Positions 3,320 to 38,237 of a DNA stretch of 64,000 nucleotides are shown here, in pieces (the stretch's first letter is position 1; the number at the start of each line of letters is the position of its first letter). This DNA comes from an uncultured Geobacter sp. (GTDB lineage: Bacteria > Desulfobacterota > Desulfuromonadia > Geobacterales > Geobacteraceae). Made by a program: the position numbers and the translations under genes. The stretch spans positions 1-64,000 of the forward strand of contig CAIYDQ010000147.1 of NCBI GenBank assembly GCA_903925075.1. Reading direction: 5' to 3'. Below the pieces are notes generated by a model. The model made no database searches. It saw only the letters and a program-made list of their open reading frames with translations, and was not told the DNA's origin.

Positions 3320-3841
3320 TTATTTAAAAAATCCGGTTATCAAGACTAATAGCAGGACAGCCGTGCGATTAAACAGAACGACTGGGTTGGCAGCTACAGA
3401 GGACCCAATACAAAGATGTCCCGAAAGATTACTGTTTGACAGAATCAGCCCACTGTCGTCCGATGCCAGAATCTGCACACGACCATCTGAACTCATGTTG
3501 AAATCCGCGTTATTGTCGTTATTTGCCACGATAATTCGACCCCACAGCGACGAGGTGATAGCGGGGAAAGTATAGGTACCGCCCGCCGGGATTGGCACAA
3601 GAACCGGGGAAATCACGTTCGGAATCGAAGTCGTAAACGGGATATTGACCGTTTTCGTTGCCGGGTCCATTGTCACATTCCCAGCAAACTTCAAGGTATC
3701 GTTAAAGACAGTCGGCTTCGCCTTCCCACCTGGCCCCGAATAGTTGACGAAGGCCTTGCTGGTCGGTGTGATATCACCAGGGGCCGCCCAGGCTGCGCCG
3801 GCCAGCAGTAGTAGCGCAATTGTAAGGATGCAGCACCTCAT
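3320..3841 (-). CDS. Exported protein of the tail-fibre cluster, hydrophobic C-terminus
   Basis: A 173-residue protein whose N-terminus MRCCILTIALLLLAGAAWA is a strong Sec signal peptide with an AWA cleavage site. The middle is beta-rich, and the last dozen residues (AVLLLVLITGFFK) form a second hydrophobic stretch that could anchor or insert in a membrane. The stop codon is 2 bp from the start region of the gene at 3844-4254, indicating one transcript. No family is recognised. It could be a fibre component or a host-surface modifier made late in infection. Confidence 0.65.
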   Translation of the reverse strand: MRCCILTIALLLLAGAAWAAPGDITPTSKAFVNYSGPGGKAKPTVFNDTLKFAGNVTMDPATKTVNIPFTTSIPNVISPVLVPIPAGGTYTFPAITSSLWGRIIVANNDNNADFNMSSDGRVQILASDDSGLILSNSNLSGHLCIGSSVAANPVVLFNRTAVLLLVLITGFFK

Positions 3842-4268: not shown

Positions 4269-6248
4269 TTAATCATCGAGATAGCACTCATCCGCGTACC
4301 CGATTCCGGTCAGCGTCGCGTGCATGGTGTCGGCAACCCTGCGAATCCCCAGGCACCGGTATTTCATGCGCTCTTCGCTCAGCCGACAAAGCACATATGG
4401 ATATTCGTAATGATCGCTCGCCGGCAACCCCGCCGGAGAGGGTAGGGTGGTAATCCCGACACCATCCAGCCCGTCCAGCTCCCCGATCCAGGTGTAGATC
4501 GTCCCGTCTGTCGCCCATACCGTCAGCTGGTACATCACGCCAGGCTCCGGATCAAACGGCTGGTCAATCTCAACCGTCGCCCCCGGCACCACGCCGAGAA
4601 TCCGGCCCGACAAAGAGAAATCCTTGGCCTGAGAAGCCAGAATAAATACATCCCCGACGGTCACCTCGATTGACTCGACTCCGACATCCACGCTGCCGGC
4701 GCTCTCCACGTACCGATTCAAGTCCAGCATGAACCGCATCAGATCCTGAACCTGCGACTCTCTGACCACTCCCACCTGTATCGGGATATTCTTGACTATC
4801 GGGTACTCGCCCTCTTGCACATCCTCGTAGCTCACCGACACCTGGTCATAATCCGCCGTCTGATCCAAAAATGACGTAGTTAGAATATTGGCGCGATCGG
4901 AGCGGGGGATTGGCTGGAACGACGCGTTGGCGTTGTTGCCTTCCCCAAACACCTGCGTAGGAGTGGTGGCCTTGTCGACCCATACGCTGTACTTGCCCCC
5001 CTTGCGCATCAGGTTGCCTCGCGCCGTAGCGGCCACGCGCATCGCGATGCTCCACAGGTCGGTATGGAAATCCACATCGGCGTCAAACAGATGGCGAGGC
5101 TGCCCGGTCGACGCCTTGATCTCCATATTCCAGCTGTCCCATGCCGCAAAAGCCGGCCAGTCGATGTTTTTGGCCGTGATCCGTCCGTGGCTGCCGATAA
5201 TCAGCATCAACGCCACGGTCCATGCGGTATGCCGGGAAATATACGGATCGGCGGCTTCGCCAAATAGCATCAAGGGGGTTCCAGGAGGGATGCCTTCAGC
5301 GTCCTCAACATAGAGATACGTCTGGCTCCCGACAACTTCCCAGGTGTGCACCCTCAAGTAATGTTTGGTCAAAAGCCGGTCGGGCTGGGCAAAACCCTGC
5401 GAGTCCATCCGTACCAGCCAAAAATAGGAGCCGTCCAGATCCGGGAGCAGCGCGTCGACCAGCACCTTGTGCATGCCGGTGATGATGATGCCGTTCACCA
5501 CCTGGTAGGTAGTAATCATGCCCAGATCGGACACACAGGTCGTGTCGAAACGTACGGCGGGAGCAGGTACCGTCAGCGGCGCGCCGGTAGCTATGGAGGT
5601 AATGGTCGGGCGGCCGCCGTAAAGCCGATCAGTCGCCATAGCGCGTAGCCCGATCAGGGAGTGGCCCGGATAGGCCAGCACCCTGCTGATGATCTCCGCG
5701 TAGCCGCTCAGGTAGATATCGTCCTGCCAGGTGACGCCGGCCTGATCCTCGGTCGTGCGCCAGATGCGAAGGTCATATACGGATTCAGGAAGGCCCCGGA
5801 GCTCGATCTCCTTGGCCACCAAATGCACCGGGTTCTTGCTGCTTCCGGAGATCTTAAATGCCCCGGCGCTGGAGGACGTATCCAACGCCAAGTGGTCTAT
5901 GGATACGTCGTTTACAGAGAATTCGCCGCCCGCCGAGTTTTCAATGACAACGGCGACCTGGTAGCTGTCTGACGCCAAATCGGCGATAGTGACGTTCCGG
6001 GACGCGCTCCCCAGGGGCGGCGCGGGGCTCGCGGTAAAGGAATCGGTGGTGGAGTCGTAAATAGAATTCAAAGGCGTGCCGGCATCCCACACGACCGCCA
6101 AAATCCATTCCGTCGCAGCCGGCGTACGGTACATCACCTTCACCCGCGCCCACGACACGTTTGAACTTTGCAGGGTCAGGTCAAAGTTGACCGCCTGCAC
6201 GGAGACGTTCGTTTCGAAGCCGATTATCGCTGGAATATTGACTAACAT
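4269..6248 (-). CDS. Tail-tip protein, J-like C-terminal part
   Basis: A 659-residue protein resembling the tip-attachment (lambda J-like) family of siphovirus tails. It has fibronectin-like beta domains at both ends and a central hub-type region (DVDFHTDLWSIAMRVAATA, SVWVDKATTPTQVFGEG, VSYEDVQEGEYP). In lambda-like phages one large J protein carries the N-terminal hub domains as well. Here those domains appear on the gene at 6882-8489, and a phosphoribosyltransferase gene separates the two. The ATG at 6248 is 7 bp after that gene's stop, so all three are on one transcript. It probably forms the trimeric tip that binds fibres and receptor. Confidence 0.75.
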   Translation of the reverse strand: MLVNIPAIIGFETNVSVQAVNFDLTLQSSNVSWARVKVMYRTPAATEWILAVVWDAGTPLNSIYDSTTDSFTASPAPPLGSASRNVTIADLASDSYQVAVVIENSAGGEFSVNDVSIDHLALDTSSSAGAFKISGSSKNPVHLVAKEIELRGLPESVYDLRIWRTTEDQAGVTWQDDIYLSGYAEIISRVLAYPGHSLIGLRAMATDRLYGGRPTITSIATGAPLTVPAPAVRFDTTCVSDLGMITTYQVVNGIIITGMHKVLVDALLPDLDGSYFWLVRMDSQGFAQPDRLLTKHYLRVHTWEVVGSQTYLYVEDAEGIPPGTPLMLFGEAADPYISRHTAWTVALMLIIGSHGRITAKNIDWPAFAAWDSWNMEIKASTGQPRHLFDADVDFHTDLWSIAMRVAATARGNLMRKGGKYSVWVDKATTPTQVFGEGNNANASFQPIPRSDRANILTTSFLDQTADYDQVSVSYEDVQEGEYPIVKNIPIQVGVVRESQVQDLMRFMLDLNRYVESAGSVDVGVESIEVTVGDVFILASQAKDFSLSGRILGVVPGATVEIDQPFDPEPGVMYQLTVWATDGTIYTWIGELDGLDGVGITTLPSPAGLPASDHYEYPYVLCRLSEERMKYRCLGIRRVADTMHATLTGIGYADECYLDD

Positions 6249-27128: not shown

Positions 27129-27446
27129 TTAGGACGGGAACAGGTCCATCTGAGCGGGGTCCACGGCATGCGAGCGCTCATAGGTGTTGTTGCGATGCAG
27201 GAACGCCACCAGCTCGTCATAGAGGACGCGGCGGTGGCGGGAAAGCGTGATCGAGTCAAGGCAGTCGGGCCGGCGCAGCTCCCCGGCCTCGTCCCGTTCG
27301 TACTGGCTGGTCAGCCGCCAGAAAGTGCGCTCGCAAATACCAAGAATGCGGCAGATCTCACCGGGGTTGTAGGACGCCTTGACCGGCAGCGCCGCCGCTC
27401 CCAGCATTCCCCTCAGCTTCATTTCGGCAAGCTCCTGCTGGGTCAT
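27129..27446 (-). CDS. HTH protein translationally coupled to the DGR reverse transcriptase
   Basis: A 105-residue protein whose ATG overlaps the RT stop (ATGA). A MerR/excisionase-like HTH is visible (YNPGEICRILGICERTFWRL), followed by SRHRRVLYDELVAFLHRN, typical of short DNA-binding phage proteins. It ends just before the candidate lysis promoter. It may regulate late genes, as Mor or C does in Mu, although it lacks clear Mor similarity. It may also be a DGR accessory protein. Both readings are inference from position. Confidence 0.65.
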   Translation of the reverse strand: MTQQELAEMKLRGMLGAAALPVKASYNPGEICRILGICERTFWRLTSQYERDEAGELRRPDCLDSITLSRHRRVLYDELVAFLHRNNTYERSHAVDPAQMDLFPS

Positions 27447-28483
27447 TGTTGCGCCTTGCATAAGTCCAGGCAGAGCAAAGTGGACTCTACCGTCAGCGAT
27501 CCCCGGCAATGCTTCATGTACCCCAAAAAGCTCATAGCGCTGGACCTCAAGCGCCCGGCATCGACCTGGCCTAAGCGGTAAAGCTCCGACAGTTTCCGAA
27601 ATCGTTTCTTCGCCGCCTTTACCGTCCTTTTGCGGGGCTTGGTGCAGTCAGGCCAAATCCGATATCCGCAAAAGTCGATGGAGTGGCAATTGCCGGAACC
27701 GGATTTAAAGATGGCGGTCTTCGGATTTAAAGTCAGGTGCAAGCGATCGGTGATGTAGTGGTTAATATCGACCAGCAACGTCTTCAGATAACCCTTATCC
27801 TGATGCACGACCAGGAAGTCATCCATGTAGCGAGCATACATTTTCACGCCGAGATCGTCCTTGACGTGGTGATCCAGCGCATCCAGATAGACGTTGGCGA
27901 AAAGCTGGCTCGTCAGCGCTCCGATTGGAATACCGCGATGGTCGCCATCACAAGCGATGATCTGCCGCACCAGCCAAAGGACATCGGCATCGGAAATCGT
28001 CCTTTCGATCAGATCCAGGAGGACGCGACGATCTACGCTATGGAAGTAGGCTCGAATGTCACCCTTAAGCACGTAAAATCCGCCCCACTGCTTTTGCGCC
28101 GCCTTGGCAAATGACTCCACCCGGAGCTTTGCGGCATGGGTGCCTTTGCCGGTCCGGCAGGCAAAAGAATCGGCGACGAACTTGAGTTCAAAAAGCGGCT
28201 CGATAACCCGCACCAGGGCGTGATGCACGACCCTATCCTTGAAGGCCGGCGCGCTGATGAGGCGCTTTTTCGGCTCATAGACGCAGAACTCGCGATAAGC
28301 CAAAGGCTGCCATTGCTTCCAGCTTAACAGGTTCAGAGCGTCGATCAGGTTCTCTTCGAGGTGTTGTCGGTACTTGAGCGCCGCGGGTTGATACCTCTTA
28401 TTGCGCGAGGCGGCCCTATACGCATGGACGAAGTTTTCAAAGTTCACGATCTGTGGCCACAGGTTGTTGTGCGTAGTAGGCAT
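27443..28483 (-). CDS. DGR-type reverse transcriptase
   Basis: A 346-residue RT. Motif A is LKGDIRAYFHSV (Asp142), motif C is YARYMDDFLVV (Asp221, Asp222), and motif 4 is IPIGALTSQLFANVYLD. The SQ in that motif, in place of the QG..SP-type sequence of other RTs, is the mark of diversity-generating retroelement enzymes. It lacks the endonuclease or maturase domains of group II introns. The ATG at 28483 follows AAGGA by five bases; a GTG 15 codons upstream is less likely. It copies the template RNA at 28651-28762 with adenine-directed errors, and the cDNA replaces sequence in the two target genes. Avd upstream and an HTH gene downstream complete the operon. Confidence 0.95.
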   Translation of the reverse strand: MPTTHNNLWPQIVNFENFVHAYRAASRNKRYQPAALKYRQHLEENLIDALNLLSWKQWQPLAYREFCVYEPKKRLISAPAFKDRVVHHALVRVIEPLFELKFVADSFACRTGKGTHAAKLRVESFAKAAQKQWGGFYVLKGDIRAYFHSVDRRVLLDLIERTISDADVLWLVRQIIACDGDHRGIPIGALTSQLFANVYLDALDHHVKDDLGVKMYARYMDDFLVVHQDKGYLKTLLVDINHYITDRLHLTLNPKTAIFKSGSGNCHSIDFCGYRIWPDCTKPRKRTVKAAKKRFRKLSELYRLGQVDAGRLRSSAMSFLGYMKHCRGSLTVESTLLCLDLCKAQQ

Positions 28484-28769
28484 GTCGTTCCTTGATGATG
28501 GTAGGCGGTCACCATGTTCCCCTTTCACAGAGTACTTACCGTGACCGCCCGATGGTGCCTGTTTGTATCCTAAGATACGGGAGTAAAGTTCCTTTTGCCT
28601 GCGCGCTGAAAGCAGCCCCTTGAGGCCTTCTTTTTCCGGCTACAGGCGAGAGCGGGGCGAAAGCCGAGATTGATGTTCGAGATGGAGCGCTCGTAGTTCA
28701 AGTTCAGGGCAGCCAGGCCGGCGTTGTCGCCGTTGTTCCAGCTGCCGCCACGGATTGGCAGAAATAACC
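28484..28769 (-). ncRNA. DGR template RNA region
   Basis: The 286 bp between the avd-like gene and the RT start hold the template repeat plus about 170 bp of spacer on its 3' side, without a convincing gene. In the Bordetella BPP-1 DGR the functional RNA spans this avd-to-RT interval. The same is inferred here; the RNA ends are not visible in sequence. Confidence 0.6.
28651..28762 (-). repeat. DGR template repeat (TR)
   Basis: A 112-bp repeat matching the 3' coding ends of both FGE-like genes. Read on the minus strand it would encode LPIRGGSWNNGD and so on, with AAC or AAT codons at the positions that vary. It has 22 adenines; VR1 differs at 11 of them and VR2 at 13, and there are no differences at G, C or T. 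Confidence 0.95.
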
Positions 28770-29114
28770 TTACCCCCTATTCAAAGACTTAATCCAGCCG
28801 CCGAGCATCCGGCCGATTTCGGCCAGATAACCGCTCCACGTCTCGTACCTGCCTAAGGGCATAAATTCCAGATCGGTTGCAAGGCGGACCTGTGTTCGAA
28901 GAACCTCCAGCTCGGTATCGATTGCGTAAAGCGCCTCGCGCTTGTCGCGGGCGCGATTGGCGCGGATAATCATTTCCAGCGCGGAAAACATGGTTTTCTT
29001 GATGTCGGCCGCCAGGCCAAACTTCTCGCTCTTCGGAAACTGGCGGAGCGCGAGATAGCCATATTTGATCATGTCTTCGGCTTTTAGCTTGATTTTCAGA
29101 TTTTCCACAGCCAT
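28770..29114 (-). CDS. avd: DGR accessory variability determinant (Avd-like)
   Basis: A 114-residue all-helical basic protein (AEDMIKYGYLALRQFPKSEK, then FGLAADIKKTMFSALEMIIRA) of the four-helix-bundle Avd/S23-like family. Avd forms a pentameric barrel that binds the RT and template RNA and is required for mutagenic homing. It stands between target gene 1 and the template repeat, the usual place. The start codon lies in the right arm of the small hairpin TGCCC-GAA-GGGCA that follows target gene 1. The ribosome site is weak. Confidence 0.88.
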   Translation of the reverse strand: MAVENLKIKLKAEDMIKYGYLALRQFPKSEKFGLAADIKKTMFSALEMIIRANRARDKREALYAIDTELEVLRTQVRLATDLEFMPLGRYETWSGYLAEIGRMLGGWIKSLNRG

Positions 29115-29197
29115 GCCCTTCGGGCAGCAGGGGCTAAAACCGCCCCTGCAACCCCATTCAGATACCCAGAAAACCAGACGTCAGATCACCCAATAAA
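29112..29197 (-). repeat. Downstream flank of VR1 with two hairpins (copy 1)
   Basis: This 86-bp segment follows VR1 and is nearly identical to 30161-30248 after VR2. On the minus strand it contains AGGGGC-loop-GCCCCT (6-bp stem) and TGCCC-GAA-GGGCA (5-bp stem, 3-nt loop). Inverted repeats close behind the variable repeat are needed for efficient target recognition in other phage DGRs. Confidence 0.75.
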
Positions 29198-30127
29198 AGC
29201 GGGGCGAAAGCCGAGAACGATGTCCGAGACGGAGCGCTCGCAGTCCAAGAGCAGGGCAGCCAGGCCGGCGTTGTCGCCGAAGTGCCAGCTGCCGCCACGG
29301 ATTGGCAGAGCCTCAAAGTTTTTACTGCTGTCGACCCAGCATCGGCCGACAATATCCTGGTTCTTGTCAGGGTAAAGATAGGCCTTCTTAAGAGCTGCGG
29401 GGACGTCATAGCCAGACTTAGCGGACATGTCGGAAAAGTTGACAGAAGCCCAACCCCCCTGAGTGGCAGCATTGGATATCGCAATACCGTTGCGACCGAT
29501 CATCTTTGCACCAACGTCAGGCCAGCTTACCTCAGAAAGCATAAAGTCGTTGTCGGCGGCCATGAAGATCTTACCGCCAACCAGCTTAAGACCGTCGACC
29601 CACTCCCAGACATTACCCACCAGATCGGCGACCCCAAAAGGGGTGCCGTCGTGGCGCCAAGCATCCGGGCCGGAACCGGTAAGAGTTCTGCCATACCTGG
29701 AGACCTGGCCGGCTTTCGAAGGATCAAGAGGAGATTTACCCGAGTTGGTATTGCCGTGGAGTTGGCCATTCCCGTTCTTGATGCAACAGCCAGCAAGGAA
29801 CGCCCATTCCCAATTTGTCACCATATGGTGACCCGGTCCGGCGGCATAACATGCCGCCTTTGCCTGGTCATAGGTAATGCAGTTGACGGGGTCCTGTCCC
29901 GGAAGAGATACTGCCTCACCGTCAACAATGACCGCCTGGTAGGTGCCGATATGGATGGTATCCTTCACGACACCTCCGACCACGAAAGTCGGGTGCCCAT
30001 CCGGGCCAAAATCTTGCCGGTTAAAAACGTTCATGTAGGTCGGTTGGCCTTTGGCCGTCACCAGCACGGTCTGCTTTCCGCCCGATGCGGCCTCCACTTC
30101 TGCTTTGAGTTTTGCGGTTAATGTCAT
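29186..30127 (-). CDS. DGR target protein 1, FGE-sulfatase/C-type-lectin fold
   Basis: A 313-residue protein starting at the ATG four bases after GAGGAG. It has the formylglycine-generating-enzyme-like lectin fold: GHPTFVVGGVVKDTIHIGTY, VTNWEWAFLAG, DLVGNVWEWVDG and the C-terminal GGSW...GFRPAFIG ending. The last 37 residues are encoded by the variable repeat; substitutions at template adenines give His, Phe, Leu, Asp, Cys, Val, Asp and Val where the template would give Asn, Asn, Asn, Asn, Tyr, Ile, Asn and Asn. There is no signal peptide. It is a paralogue of the gene at 30231-31211. Such proteins bind diverse ligands; a receptor-binding role is inferred, but its place next to the RT instead of in the fibre cluster leaves this open. 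Confidence 0.93.
   Translation of the reverse strand: MTLTAKLKAEVEAASGGKQTVLVTAKGQPTYMNVFNRQDFGPDGHPTFVVGGVVKDTIHIGTYQAVIVDGEAVSLPGQDPVNCITYDQAKAACYAAGPGHHMVTNWEWAFLAGCCIKNGNGQLHGNTNSGKSPLDPSKAGQVSRYGRTLTGSGPDAWRHDGTPFGVADLVGNVWEWVDGLKLVGGKIFMAADNDFMLSEVSWPDVGAKMIGRNGIAISNAATQGGWASVNFSDMSAKSGYDVPAALKKAYLYPDKNQDIVGRCWVDSSKNFEALPIRGGSWHFGDNAGLAALLLDCERSVSDIVLGFRPAFIG
29198..29309 (-). repeat. Variable repeat 1 (VR1)
   Basis: 112 bp, aligned without gaps to the template repeat. The 11 differences all lie at template adenines (coding strand): three A-to-C, four A-to-T and four A-to-G by my count. Confidence 0.94.
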
Positions 30128-30160
30128 CTTTCTCCTCACTTTGCTCTATGGGGCGTAAAC

Positions 30161-30248
30161 CATGCCCTTCGGGCAGCAGAGGGCCAAAACCGCCCCTGCA
30201 ACCCCATTCAGATACCCAGAAAACCAGACGTCAGACCACCCCAATAAA
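30161..30248 (-). repeat. Downstream flank of VR2 with hairpins (copy 2)
   Basis: An 88-bp near-copy of 29112-29197, including the identical TGCCC-GAA-GGGCA hairpin. The first hairpin is weakened by an extra base and a substitution. Confidence 0.75.
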
Positions 30249-31211
30249 AGCGGGGCGAAAGCCGAGAATGAGGCCCGAGATGGAGCGCTCGCAGCTCAAG
30301 AACAGGGCAGCCAGGCCGGCGAGGTCGCCGTTGCCCCAGCTGCCGCCACGGATCGGCAGCGCCTCAAAGTCTTCGCTACTGTCGGCCCAGAAGTGGCCGG
30401 CGAGGTCCTGGTCGGCAGACGGGCAAAGAAGCGCCTGCTTCAGGATCAGCGGCGGTTCATAGCCGGGCTTGATCGTTACCTCCGAAAATTCAGCGGAGCC
30501 GTAATCGGGCTCTTCGTTTACGTCCGATATCTCGATGCCGTTCGCAGCGCTGATTCTCACTCCGGTATCGGGCCAACTCGATTCGGGCAGCAAAAAGTCG
30601 TTGTCGGCGGCCATAAGGAGGCGGCCCTCCATCAGCTTGAGTCCGTCATTCCACTCCCAGACGTTGCCCACCAGGTCGGCGATCCCGAAGGGCGTGCCGT
30701 CGTGACGCCAGACATCCGGGCCGGAGCCGGTTAGGGTTCGGCCCGCCTTACAAACCGTCCCGTGTTCCTTGGGAGTCAGATGCGACTTTCCGGAGTCCGT
30801 ATTGCCGCGAAGTTGGCCGAAGCCGTTTTTACTGCACCACAAGGCGACTCCCGCCCACTCCCAGTTAGTCATGAGATGCCAGCCGGTGCCGGCGGCGGCG
30901 CAGACCGCGCGGGCCTGGTCGAAGGTGACACCGACAGCCGGGTCTTGGCCCGGAAGCGAGACCGCCTCGCCGTCCTTGACAATGGCCTGATAAGTGGCAA
31001 TGTAAATCTCGCTCTTCGCGACACCGCCAACGATGAACGCGGGGTGCAAGCCCGTGCCGAAGCCGGGGCCGAGGTCCTCGCAATTGAATGCGGGGATCAC
31101 GGTCATGTGGGTCGCCTGGCCCTTGGCGGTGTACATCACCACCTGCCTGCCGCCCGACGCGGCCCCTACTTCCGCCTTGAGCGATTCCTTCTTTGCCTTC
31201 GAAGCTTTCAT
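30231..31211 (-). CDS. DGR target protein 2, FGE-sulfatase/C-type-lectin fold
   Basis: A 326-residue paralogue of target protein 1 with the same layout: a basic N-terminus, AASGGRQVVMYTAKGQATHM, LHPAFIVGGVAKSEIYIATY, MTNWEWAGVALW, DLVGNVWEWNDG and GGSW...GFRPAFIGVV. The C-terminal variable repeat gives Gly, Leu, Phe, Ser, Cys, Gly, Leu and Ile at positions encoded by adenine-containing codons in the template. It is the first gene of the DGR operon, 188 bp after gemA, with a hairpin in the gap. Two targets served by one template allow independent diversification of two binding proteins. Confidence 0.93.
   Translation of the reverse strand: MKASKAKKESLKAEVGAASGGRQVVMYTAKGQATHMTVIPAFNCEDLGPGFGTGLHPAFIVGGVAKSEIYIATYQAIVKDGEAVSLPGQDPAVGVTFDQARAVCAAAGTGWHLMTNWEWAGVALWCSKNGFGQLRGNTDSGKSHLTPKEHGTVCKAGRTLTGSGPDVWRHDGTPFGIADLVGNVWEWNDGLKLMEGRLLMAADNDFLLPESSWPDTGVRISAANGIEISDVNEEPDYGSAEFSEVTIKPGYEPPLILKQALLCPSADQDLAGHFWADSSEDFEALPIRGGSWGNGDLAGLAALFLSCERSISGLILGFRPAFIGVV
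30249..30359 (-). repeat. Variable repeat 2 (VR2)
   Basis: 111 bp, aligned without gaps to the template. Thirteen differences, all at template adenines, including one silent change in a Pro codon near the 5' end, which argues for mutagenesis rather than selection on protein. Confidence 0.94.
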
Positions 31212-31399: not shown

Positions 31400-31981
31400 T
31401 TACCTCCACTCGGCAGGCTTATGAATCTCGATATACCCGTTGACCGGCTCCGAATAGCTCCCCGTCCACCAGCCGGGCCCGTGCGCCTTCTTCATCCCGT
31501 TCTCGAACATCTTCTTGAGCCCCTCGATCGCGAGATAAGCCTCCTGCGAAGTCCGAATCCGCCCCCCCTTGATCTTCATCCGCTTCTCCAGGAAGAGCTG
31601 CAGCCCGTTCTCCTCGCGCCACACAATCAACTGCGCGACCTGGTCGACCTTCTCCAGCTCCCCGCGAGTGGCGAGCCCAACAATCTTGCTGTCCGTGCGG
31701 CTGATCGGCGGCCGCGCCCCCTTCTTGGGAGCGGTCTTCTCCGGCTTCGGCTTGCCCTTGCCCGGGATGATGGCAAACCCCTTGTCCTCCAGCTCTTTGA
31801 TGTACACCGTAGCCTGGTTGAAAGTCAGCTTGGTGCAGGACCGCACCCCAAACCGCTCCTGCAACCCATCCCGATAGTCGTCGTCGCTGATCCCGAGCTT
31901 GCCGACAGCCATCTTGATAACCGTCCTCTGCTTGCCGTTGATCGGCAGCTCCGCAAATTTCCGATAATTCCGTACAGTCAC
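31400..31981 (-). CDS. gemA: GemA-like regulatory protein (DUF1018)
   Basis: A 193-residue protein from a GTG five bases after AAGGGGG. The N-terminal segment TVIKMAVGKLGISDDDYRDG and the following CTKLTFNQATVYIKELEDKG match the GemA/Mu gp16 family. A basic Lys/Pro linker leads to a C-terminal domain found in longer GemA forms (SRTDSKIVGLATRGELEKVD). In Mu, GemA changes host gene expression and DNA topology early in lytic growth. It ends the early gene string, before the DGR. Confidence 0.8.
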   Translation of the reverse strand: MTVRNYRKFAELPINGKQRTVIKMAVGKLGISDDDYRDGLQERFGVRSCTKLTFNQATVYIKELEDKGFAIIPGKGKPKPEKTAPKKGARPPISRTDSKIVGLATRGELEKVDQVAQLIVWREENGLQLFLEKRMKIKGGRIRTSQEAYLAIEGLKKMFENGMKKAHGPGWWTGSYSEPVNGYIEIHKPAEWR

Positions 31982-34039: not shown

Positions 34040-34531
34040 TCAGCCATGGTGTCCACTTCCCAGCAGCATGTTGCCGGCGGCTGTCTCGATCTCCCCCAGG
34101 GCGTCCATGCTCATCGGCTGATCGCGCAGGGCGGCCAGCAGATAGAGGCAGGTTTTGGACAGGCAGATGACCGTCTCCTCCTCGGCTGTGCCGTAGACGG
34201 CCACCCGGCCGGCGATGGCGATAATGGAGCCGTCCAGGCTGGCGGCCAGCTTTGGAGCCGGCAGCGCAGCGGCCTGTTCGGACCATTCCTGGACATGCCC
34301 AAAGAGCGAAGCAACCGTAAGCCCCTTGCCCCAGAGCCAATCGCTGATGACCGGCGTAGCGGCGACGAATTCGGCCACGTCGGCCAGAAAGCGCTGGCGC
34401 TCGGCCGGGTCCACCGGCAGCTCGCCGAAGTTGAACACCCGGCTGATCAGCCCCTTGCTCCAGCCGGTGGCGTTCACCAGCTCCGACTGGGTCAGCTTGC
34501 ACTCGTTGAAGGCCAGCTTGATTCTCAGCAT
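34040..34531 (-). CDS. XRE-type HTH early regulator
   Basis: A 163-residue protein whose ATG lies 7 bp inside the end of the B-like gene. The N-terminal HTH reads RIKLAFNECKLTQSELVNAT followed by GWSKGLISRVFNFGELPVDP, where a third helix contacts DNA. The C-terminal half (ALPAPKLAASLDGSIIAIAG) has no recognised domain. Probably a phage regulator in the transposition operon. Confidence 0.65.
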   Translation of the reverse strand: MLRIKLAFNECKLTQSELVNATGWSKGLISRVFNFGELPVDPAERQRFLADVAEFVAATPVISDWLWGKGLTVASLFGHVQEWSEQAAALPAPKLAASLDGSIIAIAGRVAVYGTAEEETVICLSKTCLYLLAALRDQPMSMDALGEIETAAGNMLLGSGHHG

Positions 34532-35421
34532 GCCGACACCTCCTTCAGCTCGACTTCGCCGCCCGCGCGGCGCGCCTGCACTTCTTTCAAGGCGTCCTTA
34601 GCGGAGAGCGCGGCCACCGGCTGCTTCTTGGCCAACCCCTTGGGAAGCGCCGTCGCCTTCGGGGCCCCGCCGACCGCCTCCACGTCGCCGACCGTAGCCA
34701 TCTGCCGGCCGTCGGCCCAGGCGTAGTTCAGGACGGCGATGCACAGCTCCTGCAGCTCCAGGTAGTTAGTCGACTGCGGCCGCCCCGCCAACGCCTCGAT
34801 AGCCTCCTCCTCGAAATGCTTGCCCAGGGTCGCCTTCACGTACCCCACGGCCTCCCCGGCGAACAGCCCCTGCATCCGCACCAGATCCGTGCGCAGCCGC
34901 ACCTCGCTGACGCCGGGCCGGTTCATCGGGTCGCTCTGCCCGATCAGCACCACCGTGAAGAGCTCGCGCTCCCCCATCCACTCGATCTCCCGGAGCGTCT
35001 TCAGGCTCTTCAACGTGGCGCCATGCAGGCGCTGCGCCTCCTCGATACAGACCACGATCTTCTCCTTCTGGCTGGCCGCGCCGACGATCCGCCGCAGCTG
35101 CCGGCTCCGGGTCTCGCCCCGACCCAGCGGGGCCTCGTCGGAGAGGTCCAGGATAATCGCCGTCTCGATATCCGCGATCGAGATCTTCTCCTTTTGCGCC
35201 CGGGCCACGTCCACCCGGCGCACCCCCAGCTTATGCAGCGCCGCGTTGATCGCCTCCGACTTGCCGACGCCGCGCTCGCCGACGATGCTCACCATGGCGT
35301 TCGACTCCACCGCCATGGCCAGAATCCGGCGCACACGCAAGCTGTCGCCGGTGTCGAACCGAGCCTTCTTGAACGGGTCGACCTTGTAACCAAGGTTGAC
35401 AAGCAGTTCCAGTTTCGTCAT
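34525..35421 (-). CDS. Transposition target-selection ATPase (MuB-like)
   Basis: A 298-residue AAA+ ATPase starting seven bases after AAGGAGG. Walker A is GERGVGKS (residues 48-55) and Walker B lies in IVVCIEEAQRLHG (122 onwards). Like MuB it would bind host DNA, mark target sites and activate the transposase. It follows the transposase gene as in all Mu-like phages, separated by a strong hairpin (35452-35476) and a short 9-nt repeat. Confidence 0.9.
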   Translation of the reverse strand: MTKLELLVNLGYKVDPFKKARFDTGDSLRVRRILAMAVESNAMVSIVGERGVGKSEAINAALHKLGVRRVDVARAQKEKISIADIETAIILDLSDEAPLGRGETRSRQLRRIVGAASQKEKIVVCIEEAQRLHGATLKSLKTLREIEWMGERELFTVVLIGQSDPMNRPGVSEVRLRTDLVRMQGLFAGEAVGYVKATLGKHFEEEAIEALAGRPQSTNYLELQELCIAVLNYAWADGRQMATVGDVEAVGGAPKATALPKGLAKKQPVAALSAKDALKEVQARRAGGEVELKEVSAC

Positions 35422-35451
35422 AATCAAACCTCCTTGTAGTTTAGTAGGTGG

Positions 35452-35476
35452 GGGAGGGCGGCCCATCCGCCCTCCC
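35452..35476. terminator. Strong hairpin between transposase and ATPase genes
   Basis: GGGAGGGCGG (35452-35461) and CCGCCCTCCC (35467-35476) form a perfect 10-bp stem around CCCAT. No T-run follows on the minus strand, so it may attenuate rather than stop transcription into the ATPase gene, or stabilise mRNA. Confidence 0.5.
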
Positions 35477-35480
35477 TGAA

Positions 35481-35516
35481 GTCCCATCATTCCCAGCAAT
35501 TCCCATAATTCCCAGA
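35481..35516. repeat. Intergenic 9-nt-period repeat (GGGANNNNT type)
   Basis: On the minus strand GGGAATTAT, GGGAATTGCT (one extra base) and GGGAATGAT lie between the transposase stop and the hairpin. Confidence 0.6.
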
Positions 35517-35524
35517 TCCGCTCC

Positions 35525-37120
35525 CTACAACGCCTGCGCCTGCACCGCCTGTAATTCCAAAGCCAAATCCGCCACGAACCGCCGCGACAGCCCGCTCTCC
35601 ACGATCATCCCCTTGACTTCGCTCCTCATTTCCGCGTCCATGAAGGCTCCGCAAAGCCCCTGGAACTCCCTCAAGGCAGTCTCGATATCCGGGTAGCTGT
35701 CGACGCTCAGCGGGTCCTCGATCTGGCGCACCTCCTTGATCCTGGTCGGCATCTGCCGCACGTTGGCCGCCCTGGCGCGATCCTCCGTATAAAGCGTGTT
35801 GGTCAACCCCGTAAGCTCCACGGCGGCCTTACGCACCTGCTGATAAGTGCTCTCCGGGGCCTCCGAATACTCGCCCAGGGCGTTCGGAGTGAAGTCCTCG
35901 ACCTCGTATTTCGCGCCGTCCTTCTGGTCGACCACCACCATCCTGTTCGCGAACATCCCCTGGTAGACCCAGACCCAGGCGTCATGCAGCCCCTTCACCT
36001 CGTAAATCACGTTATCCAGGGAGAAACAGCCGTCCTGGCCGAGCTTGCGGGACCAGCGGCGCACCAGCGTCTTGATCGCATTCTCCGGCAGCGCCACAGC
36101 CCCGCCGATCTGGTTGATCTTCAGCCACGCCTGACGCCGGCTGATCGTGCGCTCGTAGCGGTGCTTCATCTCGTTGTAGTCGCGCTGGTAGCGCAGGAAT
36201 CGCTGGTTAAGCTCCGACAGCGATATCTCGAACTTCTTCCAGTCGCTCTCCGCGAAAAAAGGAAGCTCGAAGCGCTGCCACATGGTCCTCCAGGGGCGCT
36301 CGATCTTGCCGTGCGCGTCCTTATTGAGCACCTCCGAGGGGGCAATCTCGATACCGAGGCGCTCGAACCATTCCGGGATACCGTCCGAACTCATCATCGG
36401 CCCGTGATCCCCCTTGATCTTCTCCGGCAACCCGAACATCTCCTTCTCCGAGTTCTGCGACCAGGCCCAGCAAAGGAAATCGAGGTTGTCCCCGGCGCTC
36501 TCCCCCAGGGCCGCGACGTAGCGACCCACATGGAAGCCGCTGTAGTCGTCGACCACCCCGTAAATCCAGGGGCGCAGCCGGATCGGCACCGGCTTGTTCT
36601 TGTAATCCTTGGTGCCGCCGTAGATCCGGAGCATGTAATCGCCATCCGGCAGCTCACGGTGCACGTAAAAGCAGTTCGAACTGGAGGCGTCGACGTGATG
36701 CATCTTGTTTGGCCCATCCGCCTGGTAGCGCTCGATCCGGCGGCGCTGCTTATTGGCGCCGATCTCCCTGATCACCCGGTCGAAAGTGGCCACATGCGCC
36801 ATCCCCGCGGGAATCAGCCCGTTGGCCACGGCGATCTCCACCGCATCCTTGGTGGTGATCTGGCCGCGGTGCTCGGGCGGCCGGCTCTTGACCTGGGCAA
36901 CCAGCAGGGCGGCCTGTTCGATGTCCTCGATCTGCCGCACACCCGCCCGCTTCTTCCCCACCCGTTTACCGGTGGCCGGGATCGAGCGATACAGCGTCTG
37001 GTAGCTCACGTCCAGGCGCTTCGCCCAGTCCTTCACCACCGTCCCGCGGCCGCCCTTCGGGCAACCCGCCAAATCCGCTTTCAGCATGGCCAGCACGGCC
37101 GGATCGATTGCTTTTGCCAT
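35525..37120 (-). CDS. DDE transposase (MuA-like)
   Basis: A 531-residue transposase. The N-terminal 130 residues contain HTH elements (VVKDWAKRLDVSYQTLYRSI). The RNase H-like core carries the catalytic triad: Asp144 in HHVDAS, Asp238 in KGDHGPM, and Glu274 in HGKIERPWRT. A beta-barrel domain (about 380-470) and an alpha-helical C-terminus that should contact the ATPase follow. It catalyses integration and replicative transposition of the phage. The ATG at 37120 lies one base after the preceding stop, which indicates coupling. Confidence 0.93.
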   Translation of the reverse strand: MAKAIDPAVLAMLKADLAGCPKGGRGTVVKDWAKRLDVSYQTLYRSIPATGKRVGKKRAGVRQIEDIEQAALLVAQVKSRPPEHRGQITTKDAVEIAVANGLIPAGMAHVATFDRVIREIGANKQRRRIERYQADGPNKMHHVDASSSNCFYVHRELPDGDYMLRIYGGTKDYKNKPVPIRLRPWIYGVVDDYSGFHVGRYVAALGESAGDNLDFLCWAWSQNSEKEMFGLPEKIKGDHGPMMSSDGIPEWFERLGIEIAPSEVLNKDAHGKIERPWRTMWQRFELPFFAESDWKKFEISLSELNQRFLRYQRDYNEMKHRYERTISRRQAWLKINQIGGAVALPENAIKTLVRRWSRKLGQDGCFSLDNVIYEVKGLHDAWVWVYQGMFANRMVVVDQKDGAKYEVEDFTPNALGEYSEAPESTYQQVRKAAVELTGLTNTLYTEDRARAANVRQMPTRIKEVRQIEDPLSVDSYPDIETALREFQGLCGAFMDAEMRSEVKGMIVESGLSRRFVADLALELQAVQAQAL

Positions 37121-37121
37121 T

Positions 37122-38237
37122 TCACGCCTCGAAGAGATTAACGGCCCGTTCCCAGCGCTGGCGCAGATCCGAGAGAGCAAGCTCCACCGTCTGCATGTGC
37201 CCCTCAACCTGCCCCATGATGATCGGCTCCTGCTGCACCCGCTCGTCCACGATGAAGCTCGACATCAGAGCGACCACGCAAAGGACGCCGTCCTTGATCC
37301 CCTGCAGCTGCTCGGCCGCGAAAGAGAGGTCCCGCTCCTCCGGGTCGAAAGGCTTCAGGCGGCGGACCTCCTTCACCAGCGCCTTCACCTCCGCCTTCAG
37401 CCCCTTGGTCTCCTCCTTCACCGCGTCATCCAGGCGCCCTTCCAGCTTCTCGACCCGTTCGGTCAGCTTCGACCGGCTTTCGAGCACCCTTTCGATAGCC
37501 GCCTGCAGATCCTCGTGGTGGTCCTCGTCGATCGGGATCACCTCCTCTCCGATGGTGAGGCAGTCGATGCTGACGGCGACAGTCCCATCCAGGGTGAGTT
37601 GGCGCAGCTTACGGAGGTCGCGGTAACCAACCCTTAAACTGGCGACGGTCCCCAAAAAATCCTCCCCAAATGCTTGCAAGTTGAGCAGGTCCTCGTCTAC
37701 CTGCCGACGAGATTTACCTATAGATTCACAGAACTTATCCCAAGTACCTATCCCAGGGACATCCTTGTATATCTTTAACTCCTTAACCTCCTTCAACCAC
37801 ATCAAACTGGCGACGTCGCCAAATTTGACGACCATCTGTACGCCTTGAACTTGCCCAATCACCCTATGACAGCGGGCAATTTGGCTTTCTCTCTCTATCT
37901 GCTCCACAGCCCTTAGGTCCTTTGCGTCCCTTTCGTCCTGCAACGTGGCGATCTCCATCCCAGTAGTCCTCTCCTGCCGATTGGCGGTGTCCAGAACAGC
38001 CTGGTCGGTAATGGTCGGTTCTGCCGTAAACTGGACCAACCTCTGGCGCAAGGCCTTCTCCCTCATCCGGTTCCCGGGCAATCCCTCTACCTGCTCCAAA
38101 GCCTGCCTCACCGTGGCCTCGTCTGTCCGCGCCAGTACGCCCTGGAAATTCACGTCAGTTGCCGGAGTTCCCATCAACCACATGAGGTCGGTCCCGTCCT
38201 TTGTGCCCTTTTTGCTACCCTCCGCACCGTCGCCCAT
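37122..38237 (-). CDS. Early phage protein with coiled coil, function unknown
   Basis: A 371-residue protein translated from the ATG at 38237 after GGAGG. Residues about 120-190 (YKDVPGIGTWDKFCESIGKS then RRQVDEDLLNLQ) look like the HTH-like segment of DUF3102-type phage proteins. Residues 245-290 form a coiled coil. Two short stretches of the coding sequence repeat in 9-nt steps (GGACGAAAG-like). It precedes the transposase, where Mu encodes other replication and regulatory factors. The exact role is unknown. Confidence 0.6.
   Translation of the reverse strand: MGDGAEGSKKGTKDGTDLMWLMGTPATDVNFQGVLARTDEATVRQALEQVEGLPGNRMREKALRQRLVQFTAEPTITDQAVLDTANRQERTTGMEIATLQDERDAKDLRAVEQIERESQIARCHRVIGQVQGVQMVVKFGDVASLMWLKEVKELKIYKDVPGIGTWDKFCESIGKSRRQVDEDLLNLQAFGEDFLGTVASLRVGYRDLRKLRQLTLDGTVAVSIDCLTIGEEVIPIDEDHHEDLQAAIERVLESRSKLTERVEKLEGRLDDAVKEETKGLKAEVKALVKEVRRLKPFDPEERDLSFAAEQLQGIKDGVLCVVALMSSFIVDERVQQEPIIMGQVEGHMQTVELALSDLRQRWERAVNLFEA

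Follow-up and report, generated by a model that had tools for sequence, protein, structure and literature searches.

A diversity-generating retroelement with one template and two target genes in a transposable Geobacter prophage, and a phased CTG array behind its variable repeats

How can one template rewrite two different genes, and what marks those genes, and not the template itself, as the sites to be rewritten? The question is raised by a diversity-generating retroelement (DGR) of an uncultured Geobacter sp. (assembly GCA_903925075.1), which lies within positions 1 to 64,000 of contig CAIYDQ010000147.1; this whole stretch of 64,000 nucleotides is hereafter called the window. The cassette holds a reverse transcriptase (RT), the accessory gene avd, one template repeat (TR) and two target genes, A and B, each containing a variable repeat (VR). 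Two sister targets constitute a natural internal control, in which whatever is shared by both and missing from the template is what the machinery should read, and the comparison singles out a particular DNA element that may govern target choice and make transfer one-way. We consider it very probable, taking the evidence as a whole, that the locus is a DGR in a transposable prophage whose single TR rewrites two targets by way of matching ends and a landing element. The cassette itself is of a known kind; the new part is the phased array of CTG triplets behind the VRs.

We examined how the two VRs differ from the TR. In ungapped alignments of 111 nt (112 against VR_B), containing 22 template adenines, VR_A differs from the TR at 13 positions and VR_B at 11, all of them template adenines (hypergeometric p-value 1.7e-11 and 1.5e-9, respectively), and none of the 89 non-adenine positions differs between the TR and the VRs. 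At least one target is altered at 18 of the 22 template adenines, with six changed in both, seven in A only and five in B only. Among the changed codons one change is silent (CCA to CCG) and no stop codon is created; eight residues are altered in A and eight in B. An earlier sequence-only reading of the locus had counted 11 and 13 differences by eye, with 24 of 24 at template adenines and one silent, and the recomputed alignment agrees. Its claim that one template serves two targets, each diversifying separately, is upheld by the private template-adenine changes in each VR, the idea itself having already been published (PMC3521204; here and below, statements on cited papers refer to the available parts of their text). 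A DNA search with the TR through the 6.55-Mb draft assembly returned only the three known copies, so that no third target was found in the assembly, and a search of the whole assembly by the array pattern likewise returned only the known copies.

Behind the two VRs lies a noncoding block that is identical at 58 of 60 positions, whereas the coding 60-column blocks before the VR agree at only 28-49 of 60. A GC-rich block shared with the TR closes both VRs, and the element behind each consists of four CTG triplets (steps of 7, 8 and 8 nt), an 8-pair GC-rich hairpin and then a 5-bp hairpin. Behind the TR there is no CTG chain, and the hairpin was judged absent there by sequence comparison of the post-TR stretch alone. 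A four-CTG chain never arose in 20,000 shuffles of each stretch. A pattern derived from 11 close-family arrays matches the window behind the two VRs only, as does a looser array pattern in the whole assembly. Among 11 distinct close-family arrays, most spacer columns vary but every array has all four CTG. The GC-rich inverted repeat behind both VRs fits a DGR hallmark, loop and distance aside. This noncoding element and the spacer RNA described below are additions to the sequence-only reading.

To place the array among other DGRs, we collected RT relatives from viral contigs (31 loci; the best 80 of 587; 67 with the BPP-1 RT as query), loci from four named genomes, from other genomes (12 of 196 by RT and 13 of 395 by Avd, the window's own aside) and from named phages. 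A usable TR/VR pair was found in 183 of 227 loci, some contigs being counted twice among the 227; the 44 loci dropped comprise 43 without a TR/VR find and one with too short a flank. Redundancy removal (at most 70% alike) reduced 190 post-VR stretches to 131, and one internal-repeat false find was taken out to leave 130. With an array defined as at least three YTG (Y, pyrimidine) at steps of 7-8 nt, we observe arrays behind 62 of the 130 VRs (shuffle mean 3.0, maximum 6 in 40 rounds), behind none of 130 TRs and before none of 129 VRs. Chains of at least four units occur behind 50 of 130 VRs, with 0.1 expected by shuffling. CTG tops all 64 trinucleotides (46 of 131), the runners-up, TCT (20) and TGA (18), being flanks of CTG itself, and steps of 7-8 nt were the best among the step pairs tried.

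The 62 arrays comprise 12 with three units, 30 with four, 19 with five and one with six, and the first unit begins at a median of 6.5 nt past the VR end. A best hairpin with a 4-nt loop is found at 35 array sites, at 30 of which it begins 4-9 nt past the start of the last unit. The position of the stop codon relative to the array is ambiguous in 57 of the 62. Upon clustering the RTs, at least one array member was found in 36 of 70 clusters at 60% identity, 15 of 30 at 50%, 7 of 18 at 45% and 4 of 10 at 40%. Partitioned by source, the array is present at 51 of 78 sites from RT relatives, 7 of 17 named-phage sites, 3 of 8 genome sites found through Avd, the one retained site of the window and none of 26 BPP-1-like sites. 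An Avd-like open reading frame is present in the loci of all 62 arrays, and the array is present at none of the six sites without such a frame (Fisher p-value 0.03). We conclude from these sequence comparisons that the array is real and target-specific but lineage-restricted. In three phages with two VRs each (L084, L085, L090), the stretch behind the VR shows, by eye, a looser T-rich 7-8 nt rhythm of CTT/TTG/TTT and not of CTG. Recognition of CTG by primase was considered as the reason for the triplet and rejected, since CTG is also used in phages with Firmicutes hosts (BalMu-1, FP_Lagaffe).

A family-specific array pattern matched 32 stretches in 2.9 million viral contigs, 29 of which have a DGR target-protein match ending at most 32 nt before; the other three have one unrelated coding sequence in common. 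Eight of the 32 had served as sources of the pattern, and 21 of the remaining 24, some of them near-copies, lie behind a target gene. Two sites (L240 and L246) are on the same contigs as DGR cassettes, approximately 60 and 50 kb away, respectively; the fetched stretches contain no match to RT or avd. Compared with its own TR, the VR of L240 has changed at 10 template adenines and 3 other positions and that of L246 at 11 and 1, and judged by these repeats both sites are remote second targets, found by the array alone. Separately, the TR of locus L012 (approximately 5716-5827) lacks in its 3' part several adenines still present in related templates, as though mutated VR sequence had been written over it, and the remote VR L240 has A or other bases where the L012 TR has lost adenines.

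Relatives sharing the same TR were compared for evidence of activity. Two loci from two metagenomes (L035 and L036) show 20 differences over 6867 aligned positions, 19 of which fall inside the 118-nt VR, 16 at template adenines, and none in the TR. Six other same-TR pairs have 12-19 VR differences each, with 91 of 93 at template adenines and none in the TR; these pairs also differ elsewhere, at 43 to 764 positions. The seven pairs were hand-picked from 23 listed, and every difference along the aligned stretch was counted. On this comparison, the family diversifies its targets. The past activity that the sequence-only reading had proposed is strongly supported on both targets, by the adenine-only, target-specific differences in the window and by the VR-concentrated differences among relatives. 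The activity claim rests on the seven pairs, as the count over all VRs (2430 of 2512 mismatches at A) is circular because the finder demanded at least 85% of mismatches at A, and the 255 of 273 VR-VR differences on template adenines (13 groups, one TR each) are likewise partly circular. In another pair of relatives, L010 and L011 (contigs 99.8% identical), the VR of L010 near position 3628 is approximately 48 bp shorter, through either a true deletion or assembly collapse.

The array may correspond to an element of known function. In BPP-1, the direction of transfer is set by the 21-bp initiation of mutagenic homing (IMH) sequence, which has five mismatches to its TR counterpart, IMH* (PMC3240598). 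Upon examining the BPP-1 record, we find YTG at three places in the VR end and at two in the TR end; the middle CTG reads CAC in the TR, which makes up two of the five IMH/IMH* mismatches, and two more directly adjoin it. Across BPP-1-like elements, YTG-N4-YTG is present in 43 of 47 VR ends and 0 of 47 TR ends, with 8.4 expected by shuffling. At the level of sequence, this comparison ties the array to the known element, in a two-unit form that would fail the three-unit rule. In PMC3240598 changes were made to the 4-bp spacer and to the hairpin; phased triplets go unmentioned and the word CTG is absent in the available text of that paper. We found no report of phased triplets in the available, mostly open-access literature, figures aside, including PMC3240598, PMC12875486, PMC4372165, PMC8144416, PMC3521204, PMC6642488, PMC7290462 and PMC5006420.

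We propose the following course of events, in which the roles of the spacer RNA, cDNA priming, hairpin and IMH are taken by analogy from the BPP-1 literature. A transcript running from the 3' end of avd through the TR and the RT-14-type spacer RNA would bind the RT-Avd complex, the RT would copy the TR into cDNA with random bases opposite template adenines, and the cDNA would replace the VR of target A or B, thereby changing residues at the tip of the lectin fold. How cDNA gets into the VR is described as still not fully understood (PMC12875486). The landing element would be the phased CTG array with its hairpins, common to both VRs and not found at the TR. Both targets would be accepted because their VRs share the GC-rich end block of the TR and the same noncoding landing element, and the lack of that element behind the TR would keep the transfer one-way. 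We infer that the window copy is active, that the array acts in target choice and direction and that the targets bind receptors.

More broadly, we lean towards the view that the YTG array, repeated every 7-8 nt, usually in four or five units and with a GC hairpin about one period on, is a form that the IMH often takes, with direction arising from the difference between IMH and IMH*, that it is perhaps read by a ring-shaped or multi-subunit component, and that in the lineage of the window it also marks remote second targets missed around the RT. Avd forms a pentamer and may be a candidate reader of the array, for which the association between Avd-like frames and arrays provides weak support. 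If the array is the recognition element, it would help explain how one template serves several genes and would, within a lineage, give a way to find hidden targets.

Several observations weigh against the proposed course of events and the wider role of the array. By the three-unit rule 68 of the 130 sites lack an array, all 26 BPP-1-like sites among them. In a hold-out of eight named phages, seven of which gave a TR/VR pair, the array was found behind two of eight VRs and none of eight TRs, below the prediction of about half that had been written beforehand. A generic 7,7,7 pattern matched at least 80 stretches, and none of the 80 listed is in a DGR context (the 12 contexts looked at are tandem or near-tandem heptads, and the reversed control gave 28 matches, also none in a DGR context), and it was rejected as a DGR detector, being not predictive. 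Phage DGR hairpins have 4-nt GRNA loops 4-34 bp from the VR (PMC3240598), a consensus from which the window hairpin departs with its 7-nt loop 48 nt from the VR. No complementarity between array and spacer RNA was found when 50 arrays were set against their own post-TR 150 nt. Finally, the phage is known from one draft assembly, which tempers any statement on the present activity of the window copy.

This last point bears on whether the cassette is a relic that once worked, with frozen VRs and a prophage or RT that no longer functions; the draft of the host genome consists of 368 contigs. We regard this as unlikely, given that the RT, Avd and both targets are open frames, that the spacer RNA scores above the Rfam threshold and that, with no differences at the 89 non-adenine positions, ordinary decay is not visible in the TR and VRs. 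The changes private to each VR, together with the separate changes in both targets of other phages (L093 and the remote targets), make it very improbable that a single target is homed to and that the second VR arose by gene duplication and recombination with the first, even though the 3' noncoding flanks of the sister paralogues A and B (support 96/97) are nearly identical and could have been spread by recombination.

Instead of acting in homing, the array could serve the translation or expression of the gene that follows, or be inherited sequence with no function, as it sits at a stop codon just before another gene and many DGRs do without it. Such a signal would hardly follow the VR whatever comes next, yet array A precedes target B, and at the two remote targets neither avd nor RT was detected in the fetched stretch. 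Its absence behind all 130 templates, the retention of CTG among varying spacer columns and its recurrence in half of the RT clusters at 50% identity (15 of 30) point the same way, and we find this explanation rather doubtful. Pairing of the array with the spacer RNA or cDNA, in place of binding by a protein, is suggested by CAG motifs seen by eye in the spacer regions of this group; duplex energies in the comparison of 50 arrays given above are, however, near those of shuffles (mean z -0.40 sense, 0.12 antisense), which leaves such pairing quite improbable.

The components of the cassette were characterised individually. The RT carries the motifs IPIGALTSQ and YMDD in the window translation, of which SQ and YMDD are invariant across an alignment of 21 RTs, and it matches RVT_1 (PF00078) and the phage RT family phrog_1423 (1.4e-122). 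Its best match among solved structures is 8ub7 (4e-53), which we take to be the Bordetella phage DGR RT. Since the RT-14 match (28503-28652) covers the GTG at 28528 and a relative, L010, begins at the matching ATG, the RT probably starts at the ATG at 28483. Avd is an accessory protein common but not universal among DGRs; the window copy scores 123 bits against NCBIfam NF033474 (cut-off 80) and also matches PF22296 and phrog_3206. The sequence-only reading had recognised an RT with the DGR-type SQ motif and YMDD and an Avd-like gene, for which it proposed profile searches, and both are borne out by these motif and family matches. The spacer RNA and both targets match DGR families as well, and that reading's account of the locus as a complete DGR, in which two paralogous targets share one template, holds.

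The stretch between TR and RT matches Rfam RT-14 (RF02921) with 52.6 bits, above the gathering threshold of 48.1. RT-14 begins at the TR end in 4 of 13 other loci searched (L013, L016, L021 and L047; BPP-1 aside), and in BPP-1 the same position between TR and RT is occupied by RF03022 (Phage_DGR). From these positions RT-14 appears to be the spacer RNA of this DGR lineage, a role on which its Rfam description is silent. Promoter-like and terminator-like sites near the cassette are close to chance (3 versus 1.4 expected and 3 versus 4.8 expected, respectively). A defence-system reading was set aside, PADLOC having matched the RT domain only and nothing for Avd or the targets. Elsewhere in the host assembly, contigs C23, C360 and C367 (L002-L005) hold further reverse transcriptases, which share 27-39% identity with that of the DGR.

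Both targets match the FGE domain PF03781 and phrog_2889 (A 1.4e-103, B 7e-91). For target A, the sole solved sequence relative at E 0.01 is PDB 5vf4 (TaqVP; phmmer 4e-74). Its AlphaFold model has a mean pLDDT of 75 and a pTM of 0.81, with residues 285-320 below 50, and the predicted fold resembles TaqVP (E 3e-31 to 1e-30, TMq 0.82-0.84); the tip encoded by the VR is modelled with pLDDT below 50. The start of target B may be the ATG at 30127. Targets A and B are 63% identical in amino acids. A tree of 13 targets, built with the VR-coded end removed, places them as sisters (96/97) and joins the two targets of L093 in a separate pair (96/93). Because the two pairs group separately, the tandem duplication of targets seems to have happened twice, unless gene conversion made the members of each pair look alike.

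All parts of the cassette are on the minus strand, where the sequence-only reading had placed them, in the order target A, target B, avd, TR, spacer and RT (Table 1). Upstream are a transposase (phrog_310, 4.8e-36), a MuB-like ATPase (phrog_296, DNA transposition protein, 1e-12) and GemA (PF06252), with a DUF3164 protein and a CI-repressor-like protein nearby; downstream are terminase, portal, head protease, tape measure and J-like tail genes. No tail sheath was found among 10 tail-region proteins scanned, which gave central tail fibre J-like and tape-measure matches instead. The phage, as read from its genes, is transposable with a siphovirus-type tail, and as it lacks a recognised contractile tail module we do not assign it to Mu proper. 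The earlier label of a Mu-like prophage thus fits the transposition genes (MuA-type, MuB-type, GemA) but not the siphovirus-like tail. Host-type genes begin by 47.8 kb. The targets are approximately 21 kb or more away from the J-like tail genes, in contrast to VP58.5, ACA2 and FP_Lagaffe, in which the DGR adjoins tail or baseplate genes. Among 11 window proteins tried, only the DGR genes are shared with the relatives L011-L018 and L093 within the retrieved flanks, and for this reason the cassette seems to move as a module.

Table 1. Positions of the DGR parts and neighbouring genes in the window
Feature	Positions	Strand	Remarks
Target A	30231..31211	-	326 aa, FGE-type C-type-lectin-fold variable protein
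VR_A	30249..30359	-	in C-terminus of target A; 13 differences from TR, all at template A
CTG array A, behind VR_A	30204..30235	-	four CTG, spacing 7, 8, 8; stop codon overlapped, rest noncoding
Two hairpins behind array A	30163..30199	-	8-pair stem with one bulge, 7-nt loop; 5-bp stem, loop GAA; DNA fold z -2.1
Target B	29186..30139	-	317 aa from frame start; paralogue of A
VR_B	29198..29308	-	inside target B frame; 11 differences from TR, all at template A
CTG array B, behind VR_B	29154..29185	-	spacing 7, 8, 8
Two hairpins behind array B	29114..29149	-	perfect 8-bp stem, 7-nt loop, 48 nt past VR; 5-bp stem, loop GAA; DNA fold z -2.4
avd	28770..29114	-	114 aa; NF033474, PF22296, phrog_3206
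Template repeat (TR)	28651..28761	-	22 adenines; no CTG array behind
Spacer RNA between TR and RT	28503..28652	-	Rfam RT-14 (RF02921)
DGR reverse transcriptase	27443..28483	-	frame open to GTG 28528; PF00078, phrog_1423, PDB 8ub7
GemA-like protein, upstream context	31400..31981	-	PF06252, 46.2 bits, cut-off 27
MuB-like and MuA-like transposition genes, context	34525..37207	-	phrog_296, phrog_310

Among known systems, the BPP-1 DGR (mtd-avd-TR-brt) has the same order of target with VR, avd, TR and RT, the same adenine mutagenesis, a spacer RNA and a hairpin behind the VR. It differs in having one target, a 4-nt loop and RF03022 in place of RF02921, and its RT is 38% identical; unlike the four CTG of the window, it has a CTG and a TTG 7 nt apart and another CTG 10 nt further up. 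The DGR of Thermus aquaticus, with TaqVP (5VF4), provides the best fold match to target A, an FGE-type C-lectin target with 38-41% identity by Foldseek; it is borne by a prophage (PMC6328139), and prophage genes in the T. aquaticus genome are often annotated as Mu-like (PMC4605624). The Hankyphage combines a putative transposase with an active DGR, which acts on a tail fibre (PMC12135933).

One TR for several targets, as in the window, is also seen in multiple-VR DGRs (the DiGReF set; the two-target phages nd4 and nd12). Multiple VRs are present in approximately one-seventh of DGRs according to a survey that also reports duplication and ongoing, independent diversification (PMC3521204), and about 13% of DGRs have two targets, as cited in PMC10743442; duplication has been proposed for the paralogous targets of such DGRs (PMC3521204, PMC10743442). 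Because of these published cases, the parallel diversification of paralogous targets is already known and the cassette is ordinary in kind. The targets of nd4 and nd12 differ in topology, whereas those of the window are tandem sister paralogues. A relative of similar layout is L093 (IMGVR_UViG_2721755202_000003), with an RT 67% identical, two tandem same-family targets, one TR and CTG arrays behind both VRs, although its targets pair together, suggesting a separate duplication or gene conversion. Bacillus phage BalMu-1, which is presumably Mu-like, has one VR found in its stretch and an RT 42% identical, and it shares with the window both a DGR RT and a phased YTG array behind the VR.

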